A DNA stretch of 21,149 bases from a virus: positions 1 through 21,149 of IMG/VR virus record IMGVR_UViG_3300035698_016915. The stretch is one strand, 5' to 3'. This document shows positions 5,743 through 18,200 of the stretch, one piece after another. A model generated the notes under the pieces. The model did no database searches. It saw only the letters and a program-made list of their open reading frames with translations, and was not told where the DNA came from. The position numbers and the translations under genes were made by a program. Within the stretch, counting starts at the first letter, position 1, and the number at the start of each line of letters is the position of its first letter.

Positions 5743-5755
5743 GGGGGGAATGAAA

Positions 5756-6970
5756 ATGTTACAAACTTTAAACTTAAATGGTCAAACCCATCAAGTTGGG
5801 ACAAAAGATATGAAATCTGAGATGAACAGATGTGCAACTAAAGGTTATACACCAGCAACAAATTATGCACATAGCTTTGGATTATTAGCACATAAAACAA
5901 GGTATATGGATGGCTGGGCTATAGATGGTAAAGGCAAAGGCTATGACTTAAGAGGATTCTTAGGTGGAAAAGCTGTTGACGGATTTAATTCTATGGCACA
6001 AAAAGCTCTTGGTCCAGAATCAGGCGGAGCAGGAACAGCAGGTTTTGCACTTGTTCCAGTTTATGTTGATCCAAGGATTGTTGATCAGTCAAGGAAATAC
6101 ACTCCACTTGTTGAGATGATTCCAAGAGTTACCAATCAAGGAACAACTGCAGATTATAACATTGTTACAGCAAAAGGTGCTGCATATACTGCTAACCCAG
6201 ATGCACCATTACCAGAAGCAGATGATACAGAAAACAGAAAAAGCACATTAATCAAGTATCTTTATTCCATTGGAAGAGTTCTTGGTCCAATGCAGGCAGC
6301 AATGCCATCCTATATTCTTGAAGGTTTTCAACCAACAGGAGCAGGAAATGTTGCAGGTTCTGTATTTACTCCTCAGGGAATACCTAATGCAAAACAATAT
6401 CAAGTATTGATGAAAGCAAGGGCTATGAAAGAACTTGAAGAAAACTTGATTATCAATGGTGATGCAACAACTGATGCAACCCAGTTCAGTGGAATTGTTA
6501 AGTTACAAGATGTGACTAACCAGAACGATCTTGCTGGAGCTGCTTTAACTTGGGATGATGTTGAAGATACTGTAAGAATGGCTTTTGATGATGGCGGTCG
6601 ACCAAAGCTTGGTGTATGTGACTCAGCTACCATGACTGATTTAAGAAAAATCATGATTGATACTTTCAGATATACACCTGACCAGCTTGTAAGTGGTGCA
6701 ATTTTACCTTTCGGTGTTCCACCTCAACTTGTCTTACAAACTATGGTAGGTCCAATTCCTGTTCTTCCATCTATGTATTTATCAAACGCAGGCGGAGCAA
6801 AGCAACTTTATTTCCTTGATACTGACTTCATTGAAATGAGAGTTCTACAGGACATGACTTATGAAGATTTGGCAAAAACCAACGATTCACAAAAATTCAT
6901 GCTGAAAATCTATGAATGCTTAATTATGAGGTCAACACCTTTTAACAGCTTTATAGATAATATCGCATAA
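5756..6970 (+). CDS. Major capsid protein (HK97 fold)
   Basis: This builds the icosahedral shell. It lies directly after the protease/scaffold gene, and its roughly 405 residues suit HK97-type capsid proteins. Recognisable segments are the N-arm to E-loop transition ending in GFALVPVYVDPRIVDQSRKYTP, followed by LVEMIPRVTNQGTTADY, and later LEENLIINGDATTDATQFSGI, where the family commonly has 'e.liinG......f.Gi'. The C-terminal half alternates strands and helices as in the P and A domains. ATG 5756 is chosen because GGGGGG at 5743-5748 lies 7 bases upstream; ATG 5750 (406 residues) is only 1 base from that site. A 100-residue N-terminal region could include a segment cleaved by the protease, but no cleavage site can be assigned. 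Confidence 0.88.
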   Translation: MLQTLNLNGQTHQVGTKDMKSEMNRCATKGYTPATNYAHSFGLLAHKTRYMDGWAIDGKGKGYDLRGFLGGKAVDGFNSMAQKALGPESGGAGTAGFALVPVYVDPRIVDQSRKYTPLVEMIPRVTNQGTTADYNIVTAKGAAYTANPDAPLPEADDTENRKSTLIKYLYSIGRVLGPMQAAMPSYILEGFQPTGAGNVAGSVFTPQGIPNAKQYQVLMKARAMKELEENLIINGDATTDATQFSGIVKLQDVTNQNDLAGAALTWDDVEDTVRMAFDDGGRPKLGVCDSATMTDLRKIMIDTFRYTPDQLVSGAILPFGVPPQLVLQTMVGPIPVLPSMYLSNAGGAKQLYFLDTDFIEMRVLQDMTYEDLAKTNDSQKFMLKIYECLIMRSTPFNSFIDNIA

Positions 6971-9891: not shown

Positions 9892-10308
9892 ATGTTATTT
9901 GAAAAGAAAGACGAAAAAGCAGAAAAAATAAGAATAGATGATCCAAGATCACCAAGTAAATATAGTTGGGTTACTCTCAGAAAAGGCAATCAAATTGAAC
10001 TATCAGAATATCGTGGAAAACAGCTTGGGCTTGTTCCTGTTAAAGAAGAAGCAAAAAAGCTTCCTGAACCAGTTGAAGAAAAAGAGCATAAGAAACCTGA
10101 TAAAAATCCGGAAGTTAAAAAAAAAGAAAAAGGCATTTATAAAGAGAATCTTGAATCTATCAAAGGTATTGGTGCTAAGACTGCTAAAGATATAATCCAA
10201 GTTTATCCTACAGAAGCTATTCTTGTTAAAGCTCTTAATCAAGGTTCTGATATCCCAATCAGGGATGATCTTGCTAAATTGTTAAAAAAGAAGTTCAAGG
10301 TGAGGTAA
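9892..10308 (+). CDS. Helix-hairpin-helix protein in the head module
   Basis: 138 residues from ATG 9892, chosen because GAGGTG (9882-9887) is 4 bases upstream; an earlier in-frame ATG at 9865 lies inside the previous gene. Residues 1-50 are a small strand-rich region (SWVTLRKGNQIELSEYRGKQLG); 50-82 are a Lys/Glu/Pro-rich linker; 85-120 carry a helix-hairpin-helix motif, LESIKGIGAKTAKDIIQVYP, with GIG at 92-94; the end is basic (KKKFKVR). Such motifs bind DNA backbone without sequence preference. Similar small proteins occur between capsid and connector genes in many phages. A role holding packaged DNA or at the portal vertex is inference. Confidence 0.65.
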   Translation: MLFEKKDEKAEKIRIDDPRSPSKYSWVTLRKGNQIELSEYRGKQLGLVPVKEEAKKLPEPVEEKEHKKPDKNPEVKKKEKGIYKENLESIKGIGAKTAKDIIQVYPTEAILVKALNQGSDIPIRDDLAKLLKKKFKVR

Positions 10309-10592
10309 TGGTATTGTTCAAAAGTGATGGTAATGGTGGGTATAATATCCAGAAAGGCACTTTAGCATTTATTATGGTTATAATCGCTCTTCTCAGTTGT
10401 GTTGCAACAGTTGTTGCTTATGGTGTCACAATGCGAGGTGACATAAATAATATTCAATCAGATCAGAAATTTACAAACAAGATTACATCAGACAATGAAA
10501 AGTCAATTATCATTAATCAGGAAAAAATATTAGCCATGGGTGATAATCTAATCGAAATAAAAGCAGACATTAAGGAGTTGTTATCAAAATGA
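10308..10592 (+). CDS. Single-pass membrane protein with coiled-coil tail
   Basis: 94 residues. One strong transmembrane helix at about 19-41 (TLAFIMVIIALLSCVATVVA) follows a short polar N-terminus; the rest is heptad-like and polar (NNIQSDQKFTNKITSDNEKS...LIEIKADIKELL). AAGGTGAGG precedes the ATG, which overlaps the previous gene's stop region by one base. A membrane protein between head genes is unusual. Holin, egress or virion membrane-contact roles are all possible; topology alone does not decide. Confidence 0.6.
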   Translation: MVLFKSDGNGGYNIQKGTLAFIMVIIALLSCVATVVAYGVTMRGDINNIQSDQKFTNKITSDNEKSIIINQEKILAMGDNLIEIKADIKELLSK

Positions 10593-11413
10593 CATATATC
10601 ACAGTTTCAGATGTAAGGATTGCAAGCGGTGCACCAGTCTCTTTAATCAGTAATACATCAGTTGAGCATGCTATTAATATAGTTGAGAAATTAACAGAAA
10701 AGAAAATGAATACTAAGTTTGTCCCTACAAGGAGAATAGACATTATGGATGGAACAGGGAACAATAGATTCTTTACTGATAAAAATCCAGTCCTAAAGAT
10801 TCTTAGTTGTGTTTCTGATGATAATGCAATTTTGCCTACTTACTTGGATGTTTCAAGAGAATCAGGCATGTGCAGACTAAACCAAGAAGCAGACACTAAT
10901 ACTTTTGTTGCAAAACAAAACGGTCTAAGAGTTTCATATTTACATGGTTATCTTATCGCTGACGATGATAACAGAACAACCACAGACGGAGCAGTTACAG
11001 CAGGAACATCAGTTGTAATAGCTGTTGATGATGCTGGAACTATTGTTGCAAATGATTGGGTTGAAATAATCGGTACTGATGGAAACAGAGAGGTTGCACT
11101 TGTTACATTAGTTGCAACAAATAACATTACTGTTAATCTTCTGAACTTTGATCATGAGGATGAATCAATTTTATACAAGATCCAAATTCCTTCTTTCATT
11201 AAAAGGTTTATGGAGTTAGAAGCAGCAATCTATGTTGGAATAAACGCAATCGGTGCAACATACACATTTAATGCTTCATATTCAATAGGTGACCTTTCAG
11301 TAGTAAAAGGTGTTCCTTATACACATTGGCGAGAGTCAGTTAATAAGAATATCCAGGAACGGGAAGGTTTAAGGCAATACATTAAGCCGAGATTTAAAAT
11401 ATTGGTGAACTAA
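10589..11413 (+). CDS. Head-tail connector (gp6/gp15-like adaptor) with beta insertion
   Basis: 274 residues, overlapping the previous gene by ATGA. The outer parts fit the helical connector that docks under the portal: N-terminal helices (SNTSVEHAINIVEKLTEKKM), strands ending in FVAKQNGLRVSYLHGY near 106-121, and the helix IPSFIKRFMELEAAIYVG near 200-217, where the family has 'P..l......la......'. Between about 130 and 196 sits a beta-rich segment (TAGTSVVIAVDDAG, NDWVEIIGTDGNREVALV, TVNLLNF) that looks like an inserted Ig-like or fibre-type domain; ordinary connectors are only about 100-150 residues. It probably projects from the neck. The order portal, capsid, connector, stopper supports the call. 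Confidence 0.65.
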   Translation: MTYITVSDVRIASGAPVSLISNTSVEHAINIVEKLTEKKMNTKFVPTRRIDIMDGTGNNRFFTDKNPVLKILSCVSDDNAILPTYLDVSRESGMCRLNQEADTNTFVAKQNGLRVSYLHGYLIADDDNRTTTDGAVTAGTSVVIAVDDAGTIVANDWVEIIGTDGNREVALVTLVATNNITVNLLNFDHEDESILYKIQIPSFIKRFMELEAAIYVGINAIGATYTFNASYSIGDLSVVKGVPYTHWRESVNKNIQEREGLRQYIKPRFKILVN

Positions 11414-11415
11414 AA

Positions 11416-11643
11416 ATGGCATTTGATGATACTAAAGCAGCACTTGATGATTTCACATCAGCAGATTGGAATAGTATGGTTATTGATCAAAAGACAAGAG
11501 CCATCAGAACAAGTGGTGCAGGTGCCCCAGGAACTGCTCCAGCCAATATTGGTGATATTTATATTGATACAACAAACAGTAAAATCTATCTGGCTGTTGG
11601 AACATCCGCAGCATCAGATTGGAAAAAGGTGATGTCAACATGA
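11416..11643 (+). CDS. Short fibre-tip-like protein
   Basis: 75 residues. The N-terminus is helical and acidic (FDDTKAALDDFTSADWNSM); the C-terminal half, GAPGTAPANIGDIYIDTTNS then KIYLAVGTSAASDWKKV, is a motif often seen at the ends or joints of phage tail fibres and collagen-like viral proteins. GGTGA precedes the ATG. It overlaps the following signal-peptide fibre gene by ATGA, so the two are translationally coupled and probably work together. Whether it sits in the neck or on a fibre is not known. Confidence 0.6.
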   Translation: MAFDDTKAALDDFTSADWNSMVIDQKTRAIRTSGAGAPGTAPANIGDIYIDTTNSKIYLAVGTSAASDWKKVMST

Positions 11644-13433
11644 AATCAAACAAACTATTTATGATCATTGTATTATTTTTAATTGGATTAATTGCAGTAT
11701 CTGCAAGTCCTTATCTTGTTGATGAGAATATGAATATTTTAAACAATACTATTTATAATGCAAGCAATATAAATTCCACTAATTTTTATCAGAATACTTT
11801 TAAAGTATTAGACGAGAACTCATCTATAAATGGGAGTAATGTTAATAGTAGTGGATTAACTGCAAACAATTCTATTTACTGGGATGGAGAAACATCACAG
11901 GCAGACTTAAGTGTAAACAAATCAGTTTGGTGGGCTACTATCAATAACTGGAGCGTTACAATGTTTGAATCAGTCGCAAATGCTTTAAGTATAAATATGT
12001 CTTGGTTAAATAATACAATCGATGACAGAGAAAAATTATGCTCAATTGATGAGGTTTGGATATATAACAATTCTGGGGATTTAAGCTGGAATACAACAAC
12101 AGGTGATGTAAGATATTATACACAAACATCAGCAAATTCAACATTTATTTTACAATCAGAAGAAAGCAATCTTAGTGTTTATAGTGCGGACTTTTGGGAT
12201 GGTTTAGATAGTCCTGATAATTTTACATGGTCTGGTGATCTATCAGGCACAGGCTTAAGTCCAGAAGTTGTTAATGATTCACATTATCATACAGATTCAA
12301 CAATAACAAGTGTTAATGGAAGCAAGATTCAGAACATGGATTTAACATGTGGTGCAGACACATATCTCACAAATTTAAATTTCACAAATGAAAGTGGTAT
12401 TTGTACAGGAATATCCGATGTGTATTTGCTTAATTCAGGAGACATCGGAACTTGGTTATATTTAAATAATCTTACAATTAATGAAACAGAAAATACAGGA
12501 AATGTTTATATTTATAGGGATTTAGGCGACGCCTCAGAAGTGCCAGTGGTTCAGATAATACAAGATGATACTGATAATTATCAGAATGTTTTAGACATAA
12601 GGAATGATGGAAGTGGTTATGGTCTTTATATTCATCAAATTGGTGCTGATTCAGCGTTTGTGATTAACCAAACATCAGGACATAACGCACAGGAGATATT
12701 TCAGAACAGAGAAAAAGCAGGTTTATATATTGAGCATTCAGGTGCAGGCGGAGCAGCAGCAATCGATGCCAGAGTCACAGGAGATTCAGGTCTTGGCAAT
12801 GCAGCATATGCAGCTTTCTTTTATAGAGATTTAAATTCAGCCAATACAAGTTCTGAGGTCGTTTCTATTGTTCAAGACAATGCAGGAGATGATCAGCCAG
12901 CTTTAAGTATTCAACAGGATGGAACAGGACTTGCACTTGATGTAGTTGGTAATGCTAATATAAATGGAAATCTAACTGCCAATATATTTTATGGTGAGAT
13001 GTGGAACTATTCATCAAACGCAACAGCTTGGGAGTTTCCAATCGCCAGTAATGGTATTTATTACAATATGACAAATTTAACTGGTGGAAGCCTTCATGGA
13101 TTTACAAGAACAGAAAGTCCAACAGCAGGATCTCATCTTACAGCACTTAACACAGGAACTTATAAAGTAGATGCAGCAATTAGTGTTGAGTCAACAGGAA
13201 ATAATCAACTTTATGGTTTTGCTATTGCTAAAAATCATGATGTTTCTTTAAGTAGGAATTGTTATGGGAGAAGGAAGATTAGCACACAATCAGCTGTAGC
13301 TTCGATTCCAATAAGTTGTATTTTAACTTTATCAGCAGGTGATAATATCTCGCTCCAAGTTGAGAATGAAGCAGGAACAGCAAACATTGAGGTTCATGCA
13401 ATAAATGTAAATGTAATGTGGGTAGGTCACTAA
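11640..13433 (+). CDS. Signal-peptide, sequon-rich fibre-like surface protein
   Basis: 597 residues from ATG 11640 (GGTG 8 bases upstream; overlap ATGA with the previous gene). An earlier in-frame ATG at 11619 would bury the signal peptide. Residues 1-23 form a textbook Sec signal: MKSNK, a hydrophobic core LFMIIVLFLIGLIAV, then SAS, with likely cleavage after Ala22 or Ser23. Residues 30-290 are Asn/Ser/Thr-rich with about 22 N-x-S/T sequons; the whole protein has about 30. Residues about 300-450 hold repeated strands (VVQIIQDDTDNYQNVLDI, GSGYGLYIHQ, VVSIVQDNAGDDQPALSI, GTGLALDV) typical of fibre shafts. The end, from about 480, is a jelly-roll-like tip domain (TGTYKVDAAISVES, LYGFAIAKN, CILTLSAGDNISLQVENE). 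A secreted, probably N-glycosylated fibre is implied if the host is an archaeon. Confidence 0.7.
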   Translation: MKSNKLFMIIVLFLIGLIAVSASPYLVDENMNILNNTIYNASNINSTNFYQNTFKVLDENSSINGSNVNSSGLTANNSIYWDGETSQADLSVNKSVWWATINNWSVTMFESVANALSINMSWLNNTIDDREKLCSIDEVWIYNNSGDLSWNTTTGDVRYYTQTSANSTFILQSEESNLSVYSADFWDGLDSPDNFTWSGDLSGTGLSPEVVNDSHYHTDSTITSVNGSKIQNMDLTCGADTYLTNLNFTNESGICTGISDVYLLNSGDIGTWLYLNNLTINETENTGNVYIYRDLGDASEVPVVQIIQDDTDNYQNVLDIRNDGSGYGLYIHQIGADSAFVINQTSGHNAQEIFQNREKAGLYIEHSGAGGAAAIDARVTGDSGLGNAAYAAFFYRDLNSANTSSEVVSIVQDNAGDDQPALSIQQDGTGLALDVVGNANINGNLTANIFYGEMWNYSSNATAWEFPIASNGIYYNMTNLTGGSLHGFTRTESPTAGSHLTALNTGTYKVDAAISVESTGNNQLYGFAIAKNHDVSLSRNCYGRRKISTQSAVASIPISCILTLSAGDNISLQVENEAGTANIEVHAINVNVMWVGH

Positions 13434-13434
13434 A

Positions 13435-13827
13435 ATGGAAGATAAACTAACAAAATCAACTTTTACAATAGCAGTTATAGCTTTATTAGTAGGTTTAGGA
13501 GTTCCGGTTTCCGAAAATATATTTAACAATGAATTAAATGATTATTATATCTGTGAAGTAACAACAAAATTGAATGAGTTTGCAGGCGGAATCTCAGGCA
13601 CAGCTTATTCAGGTTATCCATTTTCGGATAGCAGAAAGGGTGCTGTTTATTGTGGAACGTCAGATAACAAAGGAAGCTGGATTAAGTTAAGTGTTTATGC
13701 AGCAGAGAATAATATCGATCCGTATGACCTTATGCCTCAAGACAAGAATACAGAAACATCCACAGCTTCAGGGGTTTGGGGAGAACAATATATAGTAAAA
13801 CAGGGAAAAGATCCTATTAAGATATAG
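13435..13827 (+). CDS. Small membrane-anchored protein with exported Cys-containing domain
   Basis: 130 residues, one base after the secreted fibre-like gene. Residues about 8-25 (STFTIAVIALLVGLGVPV) form a signal-anchor or transmembrane helix after a short charged N-terminus. The rest looks extracellular: YYICEVTTKL and GAVYCGTSDNKGSW place Cys40 and Cys73 for a possible disulfide, followed by an acidic, Ser/Thr-rich tail. It ends in TAG. Adjacency and topology suggest it works with the secreted fibre-like protein, perhaps as its membrane partner. No family recognised. Confidence 0.6.
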   Translation: MEDKLTKSTFTIAVIALLVGLGVPVSENIFNNELNDYYICEVTTKLNEFAGGISGTAYSGYPFSDSRKGAVYCGTSDNKGSWIKLSVYAAENNIDPYDLMPQDKNTETSTASGVWGEQYIVKQGKDPIKI

Positions 13828-13834
13828 GTGTTAA

Positions 13835-14338
13835 ATGGGAATCATAATTACTAAATATGAAGATACAACTAATCTAAACGTAAGGTTTGATTTCAGTAAA
13901 TTTGATTATATGTATGATGATAATCCGTTTCCAGCCGACACAGCAACAGACTTTAATAATATAATTCTTGAGAATGGTGATGTTTTTAACGTTATTGTTC
14001 AAACTATAACAAATGATACAATGGGGACTGTTTCAGATGTCACAGAGACTTCTTTTTTAATCCATGCTTATATTATGGATATCAGTAAAAAAGACCGTAT
14101 GGTGCATGATATGGGGCTTGCTGTTCCAGGAAACAGGATCATGTATGTAAAGCCAGCTTATATAACAACATCTGGTGGAGTCGAAACATCAAAGATAGTA
14201 AAAGAAGGGGATATCCTTGTAGATCGAAACAGTTATAAATGGCGAATTGTTAAGATTATTCATGAACCTTTTTTGAACAATATTGAGATTTATAAGAAAT
14301 GTGTTGTTAAAAATATAGGTCTTACAGGCTCACCATGA
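13835..14338 (+). CDS. Head-completion/stopper-like neck protein
   Basis: 167 residues, AGGTG 4 bases before the ATG. It has the pattern of SPP1 gp16/HK97-type stopper or head-tail joining proteins: a chain of strands with a modification-prone loop and a late GDILVDRNSYKWRIVKIIHEPF segment (residues about 128-147), comparable to the 'gd.i...g..y.V..v' core that these small barrels use to close the DNA exit. IHAYIMDISKKDRMVHD is the preceding strand-helix. It lies between connector and gp10-like genes as expected, and its stop overlaps the next ATG (ATGA). Assigned mainly by gene order and pattern. Confidence 0.6.
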   Translation: MGIIITKYEDTTNLNVRFDFSKFDYMYDDNPFPADTATDFNNIILENGDVFNVIVQTITNDTMGTVSDVTETSFLIHAYIMDISKKDRMVHDMGLAVPGNRIMYVKPAYITTSGGVETSKIVKEGDILVDRNSYKWRIVKIIHEPFLNNIEIYKKCVVKNIGLTGSP

Positions 14339-14775
14339 AGATAAATTTCAGCGTTCAAACACCTGGGATGCAGATTTCTCAAAACAGAACTATTGCAAAA
14401 GCCAAGAAAGTTTTATGGTTATCTATGCATAAGATGGAAGAACTTGCAAAGTTGCGCGTTCCTGTTGATACTGGTTTACTTAGAAGATCAATTAATTTAC
14501 AACCGCGTGCGGAAGGTTCTAAAGAATACATCCTTGCGGATGGTGTTGAATATGGAGAATACATTGAATATGGGACAAGTCCACATTATCCACCTATTGC
14601 ACCGCTTAAGAAATGGAGTAAGCGAGTTCTTGGTGATGAGTCGCTTGCTTATGCTGTTGCAAAGAAGATAGCAATCAAAGGAACATCAGCTCAACCTTTC
14701 TTTAGACCAGCACTACTTGAAGTTAAAACTATATGGGTAAAAAAATATTGGGCTCGGATTATGTCTCAAGGTTAA
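14335..14775 (+). CDS. HK97 gp10-like tail completion/neck protein
   Basis: 146 residues with the hallmarks of the HK97-gp10 family: a long N-terminal helix (AKAKKVLWLSMHKMEELAKL), then RVPVDTGLLRRSI at 42-53 (the 'PvdTG.Lr.S' signature), EYIEYGTSPH near 75-84 and AQPFFRPAL near 119-127 ('qPf.rPA'). These proteins act at the head-tail interface of siphoviruses. It overlaps the stopper-like gene by 4 bases. Its TAA stop forms part of a promoter-like element for the tail genes. Confidence 0.88.
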   Translation: MKINFSVQTPGMQISQNRTIAKAKKVLWLSMHKMEELAKLRVPVDTGLLRRSINLQPRAEGSKEYILADGVEYGEYIEYGTSPHYPPIAPLKKWSKRVLGDESLAYAVAKKIAIKGTSAQPFFRPALLEVKTIWVKKYWARIMSQG

Positions 14776-17216: not shown

Positions 17217-18200
17217 ATGGTAGGAGCAGCAAGCGGTGCAGGAGCAGGTGCATTATCTATAAAAGGAAGCATTGACACTTCTAATATAGAAAGTGGATTT
17301 AAGAGAGTGAAATCAGGCTTTGATGGTGTAAAAGGTCAAGCAAAAAGCTTTGGTTCAGACCTTGTCCGTATGACTTCTGCTGCTGGAAGGCTTGTTAAAA
17401 AATTAACATTACTTGGAATCATAGGTGGAAGTGCTATTGTTGCAATTGCATCAAAAGCTCCAGCTGTCGCACCAGCACTTGCAAAGATGGGTGTTTCTTT
17501 GGATAAAATAACACGAAGTCTTGGAGAAGCACTTGCTCCAGCTTTTGAGCGTGTATCTATCTGGCTTGATAAACTTGCTACATGGGTTGGAGAAAACAAA
17601 GGTACTATCGGAGAAATTGCTAATACGTTTCTTGATTGGGCAGAAGCAGTTGGAGAATTTCTATGGCCAGCTCTAAAAAAAATTGGAGAATGGGCTGCTG
17701 ATAATCCAAATCTTTTTGCAGGAATACTTGCAGGACTTGTATTAAGTGCGGGTGTGATTAAAGGAATAGCTGCCGTATCTGGTTTAGTTACAACATTGGC
17801 TGGCGCAACAATTAGTGCTGCATTATTAACAGCTCTTGGTTATCTTTCAATTATTGCAGTTGCAGGTGTATCCTCATTAGGTGTTGGTCAAGGTTTGGCA
17901 GATCAGTTCAACGTAGGTGGAGGCACACCGATTCAACTACCTGAAGCTGCACAAAGACAAATCTCTCAAGCAAATCCAGAAAATTATGCTGATTTGGTTA
18001 ATAGATATGCTGATAGAACTTCAGATGTAGGGTTTGGCCCTGAAAGAACGGCAAGGATTAATCCAGAAACAGGTAGATTATACTCACAAGATGATATGGT
18101 CAATGGTATAATTCAAAATGCTAATATAAATTCAATGTCTCAAGGAGATTTAGATCGAAGATTTTTTATGATGAATTCATGGGATTCAACATGGGGTTAA
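17217..18200 (+). CDS. Tape measure protein (short)
   Basis: 327 residues. It determines tail length and spans the tail lumen. The Gly/Ala/Ser-rich N-terminus (AASGAGAGALSIKGSIDTSN), then amphipathic helices, hydrophobic segments (LLGIIGGSAIVAIAS near 62-76; LFAGILAGLVLSAGVIKGIA and following to about 225) and the central GEALAPAFERVSIWLDKLATW pattern are all typical of tape measures. AAGGTGAG precedes the ATG. At about 1.5 angstrom per residue the tail would be only about 50 nm. It follows the chaperone genes, as the family requires. The C-terminal 100 residues are polar and may reach the tail tip. Confidence 0.8.
   Translation: MVGAASGAGAGALSIKGSIDTSNIESGFKRVKSGFDGVKGQAKSFGSDLVRMTSAAGRLVKKLTLLGIIGGSAIVAIASKAPAVAPALAKMGVSLDKITRSLGEALAPAFERVSIWLDKLATWVGENKGTIGEIANTFLDWAEAVGEFLWPALKKIGEWAADNPNLFAGILAGLVLSAGVIKGIAAVSGLVTTLAGATISAALLTALGYLSIIAVAGVSSLGVGQGLADQFNVGGGTPIQLPEAAQRQISQANPENYADLVNRYADRTSDVGFGPERTARINPETGRLYSQDDMVNGIIQNANINSMSQGDLDRRFFMMNSWDSTWG

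Follow-up and report, generated by a model that had tools for sequence, protein, structure and literature searches.

Assembly of tailed viruses is understood to take place entirely within the cell, and host N-glycans are therefore not expected on their fibres. The first-pass annotation of the DNA described here, a 21,149-base virus record (the window, taken at its full length), assumed that such fibres normally lack signal peptides, and this held in 25 structural proteins from four archaeal tailed-virus records (HSTV-1, HSTV-2, HVTV-1 and an Altiarchaeum virus record); there is no clear N-terminal signal among them, one protein having a hydrophobic stretch beginning at residue 23, and their N-x-S/T sequons are near chance. 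HSTV-1 (Haloarcula sinaiiensis tailed virus 1) shares with the window the gene order terminase, portal-MuF, protease and capsid, and its tower gene lies between the portal and protease genes, the site at which one related locus (L005; related loci are given L numbers) carries a cassette for exported proteins. The HSTV-1 tower protein is without a signal and has 6 sequons against 8.0 expected, and no exported protein was found among the HSTV-1 genes tested.

Glycosylated virion proteins of archaeal viruses include the spikes of HRPV-1 and HFPV-1, the capsid proteins of SSV1, VP4 and B210 of SSV19, and putative glycoproteins of HRTV-DL1 (PMC10384203). These resemble the window fibre in having N-glycosylation sites and in the proposed use of host machinery, but most of the viruses concerned contain a membrane and bud (PMC10384203). 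HRTV-DL1 is head-tailed, with glycoprotein staining and an attachment protein that has nine sequons, with no signal peptide mentioned, and its life cycle was unchanged by deletion of aglB (PMC10384203). The turrets of HFTV1, built of a base and a trimeric head protein with a deacetylase-like head and seated on capsid hexamers, are similar to the fibre proposed here as a two-protein surface appendage of an archaeal tailed virus, and differ in that neither signal peptides nor export is mentioned (PMC12494034). The C1q/TNF-tipped fibres of phages and of the haloarchaeal tailed virus HSTV-2 (L7TJZ8) have the same C-terminal C1q/TNF-like fold and a fibre-like build. The Bacillus exosporium proteins BclA and ExsF also have this fold and are among the best fold matches, although they are not viral and are anchored differently; they have a collagen-like shaft and another type of glycosylation. 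Virion proteins made with Sec signals are familiar from the filamentous phages, whose pIII and pVIII are assembled in the membrane into extruded filaments, but these phages are not tailed and their coat proteins are not N-glycosylated. No signal-bearing or exported tailed-virus fibre, and no glycoprotein of a DPANN virus, was found described in the open literature searched.

The window encodes a terminase, a portal-MuF fusion, an SU10-type capsid protein and a Neck1 protein, and the features of the locus are listed in Table 1. The capsid protein was used as the query for relatives and hosts, giving 77 related viral loci; its best match in a phage collection is in HSTV-1, a haloarchaeal tailed virus (25.8% identity, E 3e-5). 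Six capsid relatives are present in a one-genome-per-species set of about 85,000 species, four of them in MAGs deposited as Nanoarchaeota, Woesearchaeota (two) and 'archaeon' and the other two in MAGs deposited as bacteria; three fall in one order, as its only matches among 353 genomes. A DPANN archaeal host is by far the best reading, with the caveat that the binning of single contigs may be wrong. An STT3/AglB oligosaccharyltransferase scores above cut-off in 70 of the 79 sampled genomes of the presumed host order, and is present in five of the six MAGs with capsid relatives, the host itself being presumptive. In samples of two host MAGs the sequon enrichment is 2.24 and 1.31 among exported proteins and 0.95 and 0.89 among cytosolic ones, the value of 2.24 coming from a MAG that looks contaminated and being dominated by one 4956-aa protein. 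Two paralogue pairs follow the capsid gene (6984-7316/7318-7647 and 9076-9462/9475-9756, all +; cross-matches E 5e-40 and 1e-19) and probably encode duplicated head-decoration proteins.

Table 1. Features of the exported fibre locus and neighbouring structural genes (positions in the window)
Feature	Position	Strand	Remarks
Major capsid protein (SU10_MCP)	5750..6970	+	Pfam PF17236, E 1.8e-20
Head-completion/connector-type protein	10589..11413	+	Upstream of stub; 43 other ORFs in related loci are homologous
Fibre anchor stub, 75 aa, cytosolic, without signal	11416..11643	+	N-terminus of long fused fibre in relatives
Stub/fibre junction	11622..11643	+	SD-like AAGGTGAT, then ATGA: stub stop TGA / fibre start ATG
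Sec signal peptide, residues 1-22	11640..11705	+	Predicted cleavage between VSA and SP
Sequon-dense N-terminal shaft, residues 23-290	11706..12509	+	Begins SPYLVDENMNILNNTIYNASNINSTNFYQ; 22 N-x-S/T
Beta-repeat-like shaft, residues ~291-445	12510..12974	+	Few sequons; profile repeats
C1q/TNF-like domain, residues 446-597	12975..13430	+	C-terminal, likely trimeric tip
Small N-terminal-TM protein, short ectodomain	13435..13827	+	Directly downstream of exported fibre
Neck1/tail-completion protein	14335..14775	+	Downstream; phrog_5, E 5e-16

The open reading frame at 11640-13433 (+) encodes 597 amino acids from an ATG preceded by a Shine-Dalgarno-like GGTGAT that is kept in relatives. Its N-terminus, MKSNKLFMIIVLFLIGLIAVSA followed by SPYLVDEN, has the anatomy of a Sec signal (MKSNK-LFMIIVLFLIGLIAV-SA, with SP after the cut), with a basic n-region, a hydrophobic h-region, small residues at -3 and -1 forming an AxA-type cleavage site, and a maximum 14-residue hydropathy of 3.34. 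It is the only such N-terminus among the long window proteins, a hydrophobic N-terminal segment of comparable kind being found in two small ones (10308-10592 and 13435-13827). The call rests on this three-region anatomy and on conservation of the junction in homologues, where A/G-x-A followed by (x)PF/PY is retained while the signal sequence itself varies. The Sec signal suggested in the first-pass annotation is thus well founded, and its absence from homologues, which would have counted against it, was not seen: the signal is kept wherever the N-terminal domain is shared. By its sequence the protein is predicted to be exported and cleaved. We note that the product of 10308-10592 (+; 94 amino acids, one transmembrane segment, charged tail), which is conserved in 10 loci, its gene immediately preceding that of the connector, is holin- or spanin-like in shape; its Pfam match to Glyco_hydro_59M is below cut-off and was disregarded.

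The mature protein is unusually dense in sequons, as had been noticed on first reading (about 30, some 22 of them in the first ~270 residues). Residues 23-597 contain 30, compared to 13.2 +/- 3.1 expected from 20,000 composition shuffles, none of which reached that number; the shuffled control proposed beforehand therefore places the count above chance. The excess is strongest in residues 23-290 (22 versus 9.4 +/- 2.5, not reached in any of 20,000 shuffles), with 8 versus 4.4 in residues 291-597 (p = 0.05). Asparagine makes up 12% of the protein, but the reversed motif S/T-x-N occurs only 19 times, spacing variants N-x(k)-S/T with k = 0 or 2-7 occur 9-15 times, and 23 sequons against 10.3 +/- 2.8 remain when the first 80 residues are removed; low-complexity asparagine repeats as the source are rejected on these controls and the shuffles. 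The remaining window proteins have sequons at or near expectation, none being comparably enriched. The protein thus fits an N-glycosylated archaeal surface protein, with glycans predicted from the excess in its exported segment.

Across the family, proteins with a signal, most of them rich in sequons, are found repeatedly downstream of the capsid gene. In 17 of the 29 loci for which 5.5 kb or more of downstream sequence exists, at least one signal-bearing, sequon-containing protein is encoded somewhere in the available stretch. Pooled over the family, the ratio of observed to expected N-x-S/T is 1.85 in 41 signal-bearing proteins and 1.16 in 459 proteins without a detected signal, with reversed-motif ratios of 0.97 and 1.00. 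The signal filter used was a home-made hydropathy rule that admitted a few terminase starts and missed membrane proteins in L042, L046 and L058, errors that weaken the contrast and do not create it. The excess is not a rule for the family, however. Sequon z-scores are high for the window (5.4), L022 (6.3) and L094 (8.8) but mild for L081 (1.5), L083 (2.1) and L103 (0.8), and the closest full-length homologue, in L011, keeps the signal, anchor stub and partner gene yet has 10 sequons where 17.1 are expected (z = -2.0). Export is therefore the conserved trait and glycan density the variable one, differing among relatives perhaps with the host. Three sequon columns of the N-terminal domain are kept in 8-9 of 9 aligned homologues and 40 are unique to one sequence, so that many sites arise independently.

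Three parts can be distinguished in the mature protein. The N-terminal domain (residues 23-290) recurs, by profile search, in other exported viral proteins (e.g. L022, L021, L094, L096, L102, L081 and L083). Of the shaft repeat that follows, the window protein has two partial copies, L081 has two and L011 about six. The C-terminal part gave an AF2 model with 11 strands (mean pLDDT 88.8, pTM 0.83); C1q/TNF superfamily domains are jelly-roll beta sandwiches of about ten strands. Foldseek matches of the model in the PDB include EDA-A1, ExsF, BclA and 4-1BBL (TM 0.55-0.7; 0.6-0.7 for EDA-A1, ExsF and 4-1BBL). Many phage C1q proteins were also matched, and its profile matches include adiponectin, ExsF and collagen X; in Pfam, BclA_C is below cut-off (0.024). 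As modelled, this is likely a trimerising tip of a fold that is frequent in phage fibres, and further exported members of the family (L005, L024, L044, L064, L081 and L053) also have a C1q/TNF-like domain. Searched whole, the fibre has no PHROG match and no Pfam match above cut-off, and neither an enzymatic domain nor a C-terminal membrane anchor was seen. It also found no relatives when used as the query against viral contigs and the phage collection, and its relatives were therefore reached through the capsid and anchor genes. A free-standing 152-aa C1q/TNF-like protein without a signal is encoded in a distant relative on a Bacteroidia MAG contig (L086:1701-2159), which is either a bacterial relative of the family or a misbinning.

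The key to the locus is the short gene immediately upstream. An alignment of the stub (A2) contains 12 sequences of 41-72% identity, and residues 32-73 match phrog_9464 (unknown function, E 6e-9); a Pfam match to Flagellin_D3 is below cut-off and was disregarded. In five loci (L010/L098, L066, L009/L101, L077/L100 and L099) the anchor runs in frame into ORFs of 449-804 amino acids. None of the five fused proteins has a signal, and although they are also Ser/Thr-rich their sequons are at chance (z -1.0 to 1.5); the C-terminus of that in L066 matches PHROG 9017 'tail fiber protein' (E 5e-15). In 13 loci (the window, L022, L030, L008, L011, L021, L048, L094, L095, L096 and L102, and the MAG contigs L081 and L083) the module is instead split, with a stub of 75-78 codons followed by an ATGA-overlapping, signal-bearing and usually sequon-rich protein. 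The short stubs end in DWKKV[IMLV][ST][QT], and in all 12 other split loci the junction has a AAAAAGGT/GAAGGT motif and the 4-nt overlap, (G/A)AAGGT being followed by ATGA 8-10 nt later; longer variant stubs in L015, L044 and L103 likewise precede a signal-bearing gene. The fused form is thus unexported and the split form exported, one excluding the other. Sequon z-scores differ between split (n=16) and fused (n=5) proteins with a Mann-Whitney p = 0.0056, a value that is only indicative because the loci are related. In the capsid protein tree the fused forms are nested among split ones, requiring at least two changes with moderate support, and the two forms therefore seem to replace each other in close relatives. 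The window fibre differs from a one-piece fibre in that its anchor is a separate 75-aa gene; and because this stub is a fibre anchor, fused or split across the relatives, we read 11640-13433 as that half of a split fibre module which is exported. Fused fibres have the anchor in common with this module and no demonstrable sequence homology to the exported shaft or tip, and the simplest reading is that the exported protein substitutes for the cytosolic fibre shaft.

The gene directly 3′ of the fibre is also recurrent. Homologues of its small membrane protein are similarly placed behind exported fibres in L011, L081 (12795), L064, L044, L016, L024, L102 and L005, with a divergent form in L059, and the ectodomain is Cys-rich in most relatives; for the window protein AF2 gave a pLDDT of only 60.8 and no fold match was found. 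The connector-type protein upstream of the stub has a weak match to the head protein phrog_1236 (0.008). The fibre gene is not confined to the neck region, since L005 carries the stub and exported fibre, together with the membrane protein and one more exported protein, between its portal and protease genes. To the right of the neck genes, 17217-18200 (+) encodes a 327-aa protein that looks like a tape measure protein; at only 327 residues it would mean an unusually short tail.

We propose that this is the split fibre module of a tailed DPANN virus, whose exported half is glycosylated outside the cell and docks on the anchor of released particles, a reading to which we give a little under an even chance. 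The anchor would be made and kept in the cytoplasm, presumably on the neck or head of the particle, and coupled translation would then yield the fibre, to be exported by the Sec system with removal of its signal. The host oligosaccharyltransferase could add N-glycans to the sequon-dense shaft. Trimers of the fibre, formed through its C1q/TNF-like tip, would remain outside the membrane, perhaps tethered by the small membrane protein encoded next. It would finally dock on the anchor of particles leaving the lysed cell and, bearing its glycans, act there in receptor binding or adhesion. Computation shows the signal, the sequon excess, the fold of the tip, the homology of the anchor, the mutual exclusion of the two forms, the conserved junction and the recurrent gene pair; that the protein is in fact exported, glycosylated, trimeric, tethered and docked is what we infer. 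Attachment to virions outside the cell is its likeliest, though unproven, end, with display on the infected cell as the main rival. Counting against docking, the exported gene and its membrane partner also occur away from the neck, between portal and protease in L005, so the gene has no fixed link to this anchor; an exported fibre that is soluble would have to stay near the cell to meet virions; the low sequon count in L011 means that dense glycosylation is not required everywhere; and the virus is known as a metagenomic contig. The fuller proposal, of a two-compartment fibre with a cytosolic anchor and a host-glycosylated exported shaft and tip docked after release, exchanged among relatives with a one-piece fibre, is put forward more tentatively.

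A glycoprotein that never joins virions but remains attached to the infected cell through the membrane protein could instead block re-adsorption of released or competing virions, mask the cell or alter adhesion, with the stub an independent virion protein left over from the fused fibre. This is possible, if rather doubtful. It accords with the pairing, in eight or more loci and at more than one genome position, of an exported fibre with a small protein anchored in the membrane by its N-terminus, with a signal that is universal among homologues, and with further large membrane-anchored or exported sequon-rich proteins nearby in some relatives (L005 5400-7985, 45 sequons versus 16.7, and L046). 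An exclusion gene, however, is expected early and outside the morphogenesis module; superinfection-exclusion proteins of phages are typically small, early-expressed membrane proteins or lipoproteins, whereas the window fibre has 597 residues, is encoded inside that module in a late structural position, is tightly coupled in translation to the fibre anchor, and alternates strictly with a one-piece fibre at the same site. Improbable, in our judgement, is a secreted adhesin or enzyme acting independently of particles, released to the medium or bound to the S-layer or to neighbours such as the partner archaeon of a DPANN symbiont. The lack of a visible C-terminal membrane anchor and the many ligands bound by C1q/TNF tips would suit such a role, but there is no enzymatic domain to be found, the gene sits within the head-neck order, and the product would be costly for a lytic virus.

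Two further explanations were weighed. It is very improbable that this is an ordinary cytosolic fibre whose N-terminus is no working signal and whose sequons are a by-product of Asn-rich repeats like NATNINATN: the asparagine content and the start motif YNASNINSTN, which itself contains sequons, point that way, but the excess outlasts shuffling and truncation, the reversed motif is less enriched, the Ser/Thr-rich fused fibres of near relatives are at chance, the AxA-type site is conserved over a varying signal, and an N-terminus of this kind is absent from the structural proteins examined in isolated archaeal tailed viruses. Least probable of all, and rejected here, is a programmed frameshift fusing anchor and fibre around an internal membrane segment. 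In the window the fibre frame is open for 57 nt before its ATG, and its phase with respect to the stub is the same throughout; against this, the open overlap is only ~21 nt in several relatives, no X XXY YYZ heptamer was seen by inspection, and the overlap holds a conserved Shine-Dalgarno at the right distance from the ATG.

The 597-aa protein is best filed as a variant tailed-virus fibre that is exported, probably N-glycosylated and split from its anchor. Of what the first-pass annotation made of it, export and likely host N-glycosylation are supported, given the conserved signal, the concentration of the excess in exported viral proteins, the oligosaccharyltransferase of the likely hosts and a matching bias among the proteins that hosts export; nothing specific speaks for camouflage, adhesion or superinfection exclusion, and addition to virions at the cell surface is supported indirectly, by the preceding gene being the anchor of the relatives' unexported one-piece fibre. 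The anchor stub, the membrane-protein partner and the C1q/TNF tip were not part of that annotation. If the two-compartment proposal is true, virions display sugars of host type on fibres that could not have been glycosylated had they been assembled in the cytosol, and a conserved, widespread exported fibre would change the picture of assembly for viruses whose hosts are DPANN archaea, a group that is large and little studied. As nature offers both a fused-unexported and a split-exported fibre on one anchor, the choice between virion and cell is testable, and the exported fibre is a practical marker for archaeal virus structural genes missed by standard libraries.

Some further features were seen in the related loci. 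A 1745-aa protein in L046 (3668-8905, +), encoded upstream of the capsid gene, has an N-terminal membrane segment and 88 sequons versus 29.6 expected, and L042, L058 and L053 encode other large TM-anchored sequon-bearing proteins with a RIDVEKT-type start; these are possibly the main surface glycoproteins of these viruses. L022 encodes a second exported protein (10019-11983, +) with a LamG-like start ALIDDLIAYYKFDESSGDVIDSYGNNDG and 30 sequons versus 11.5 expected. Homing-endonuclease-like genes, called from sequence by eye (HNH type; LAGLIDADG-like fragment), are found by the fibre locus in L022 (12027-12434), L030 (14053, +) and L015 (13516-13749), and may lie behind a frequent swapping of this locus.
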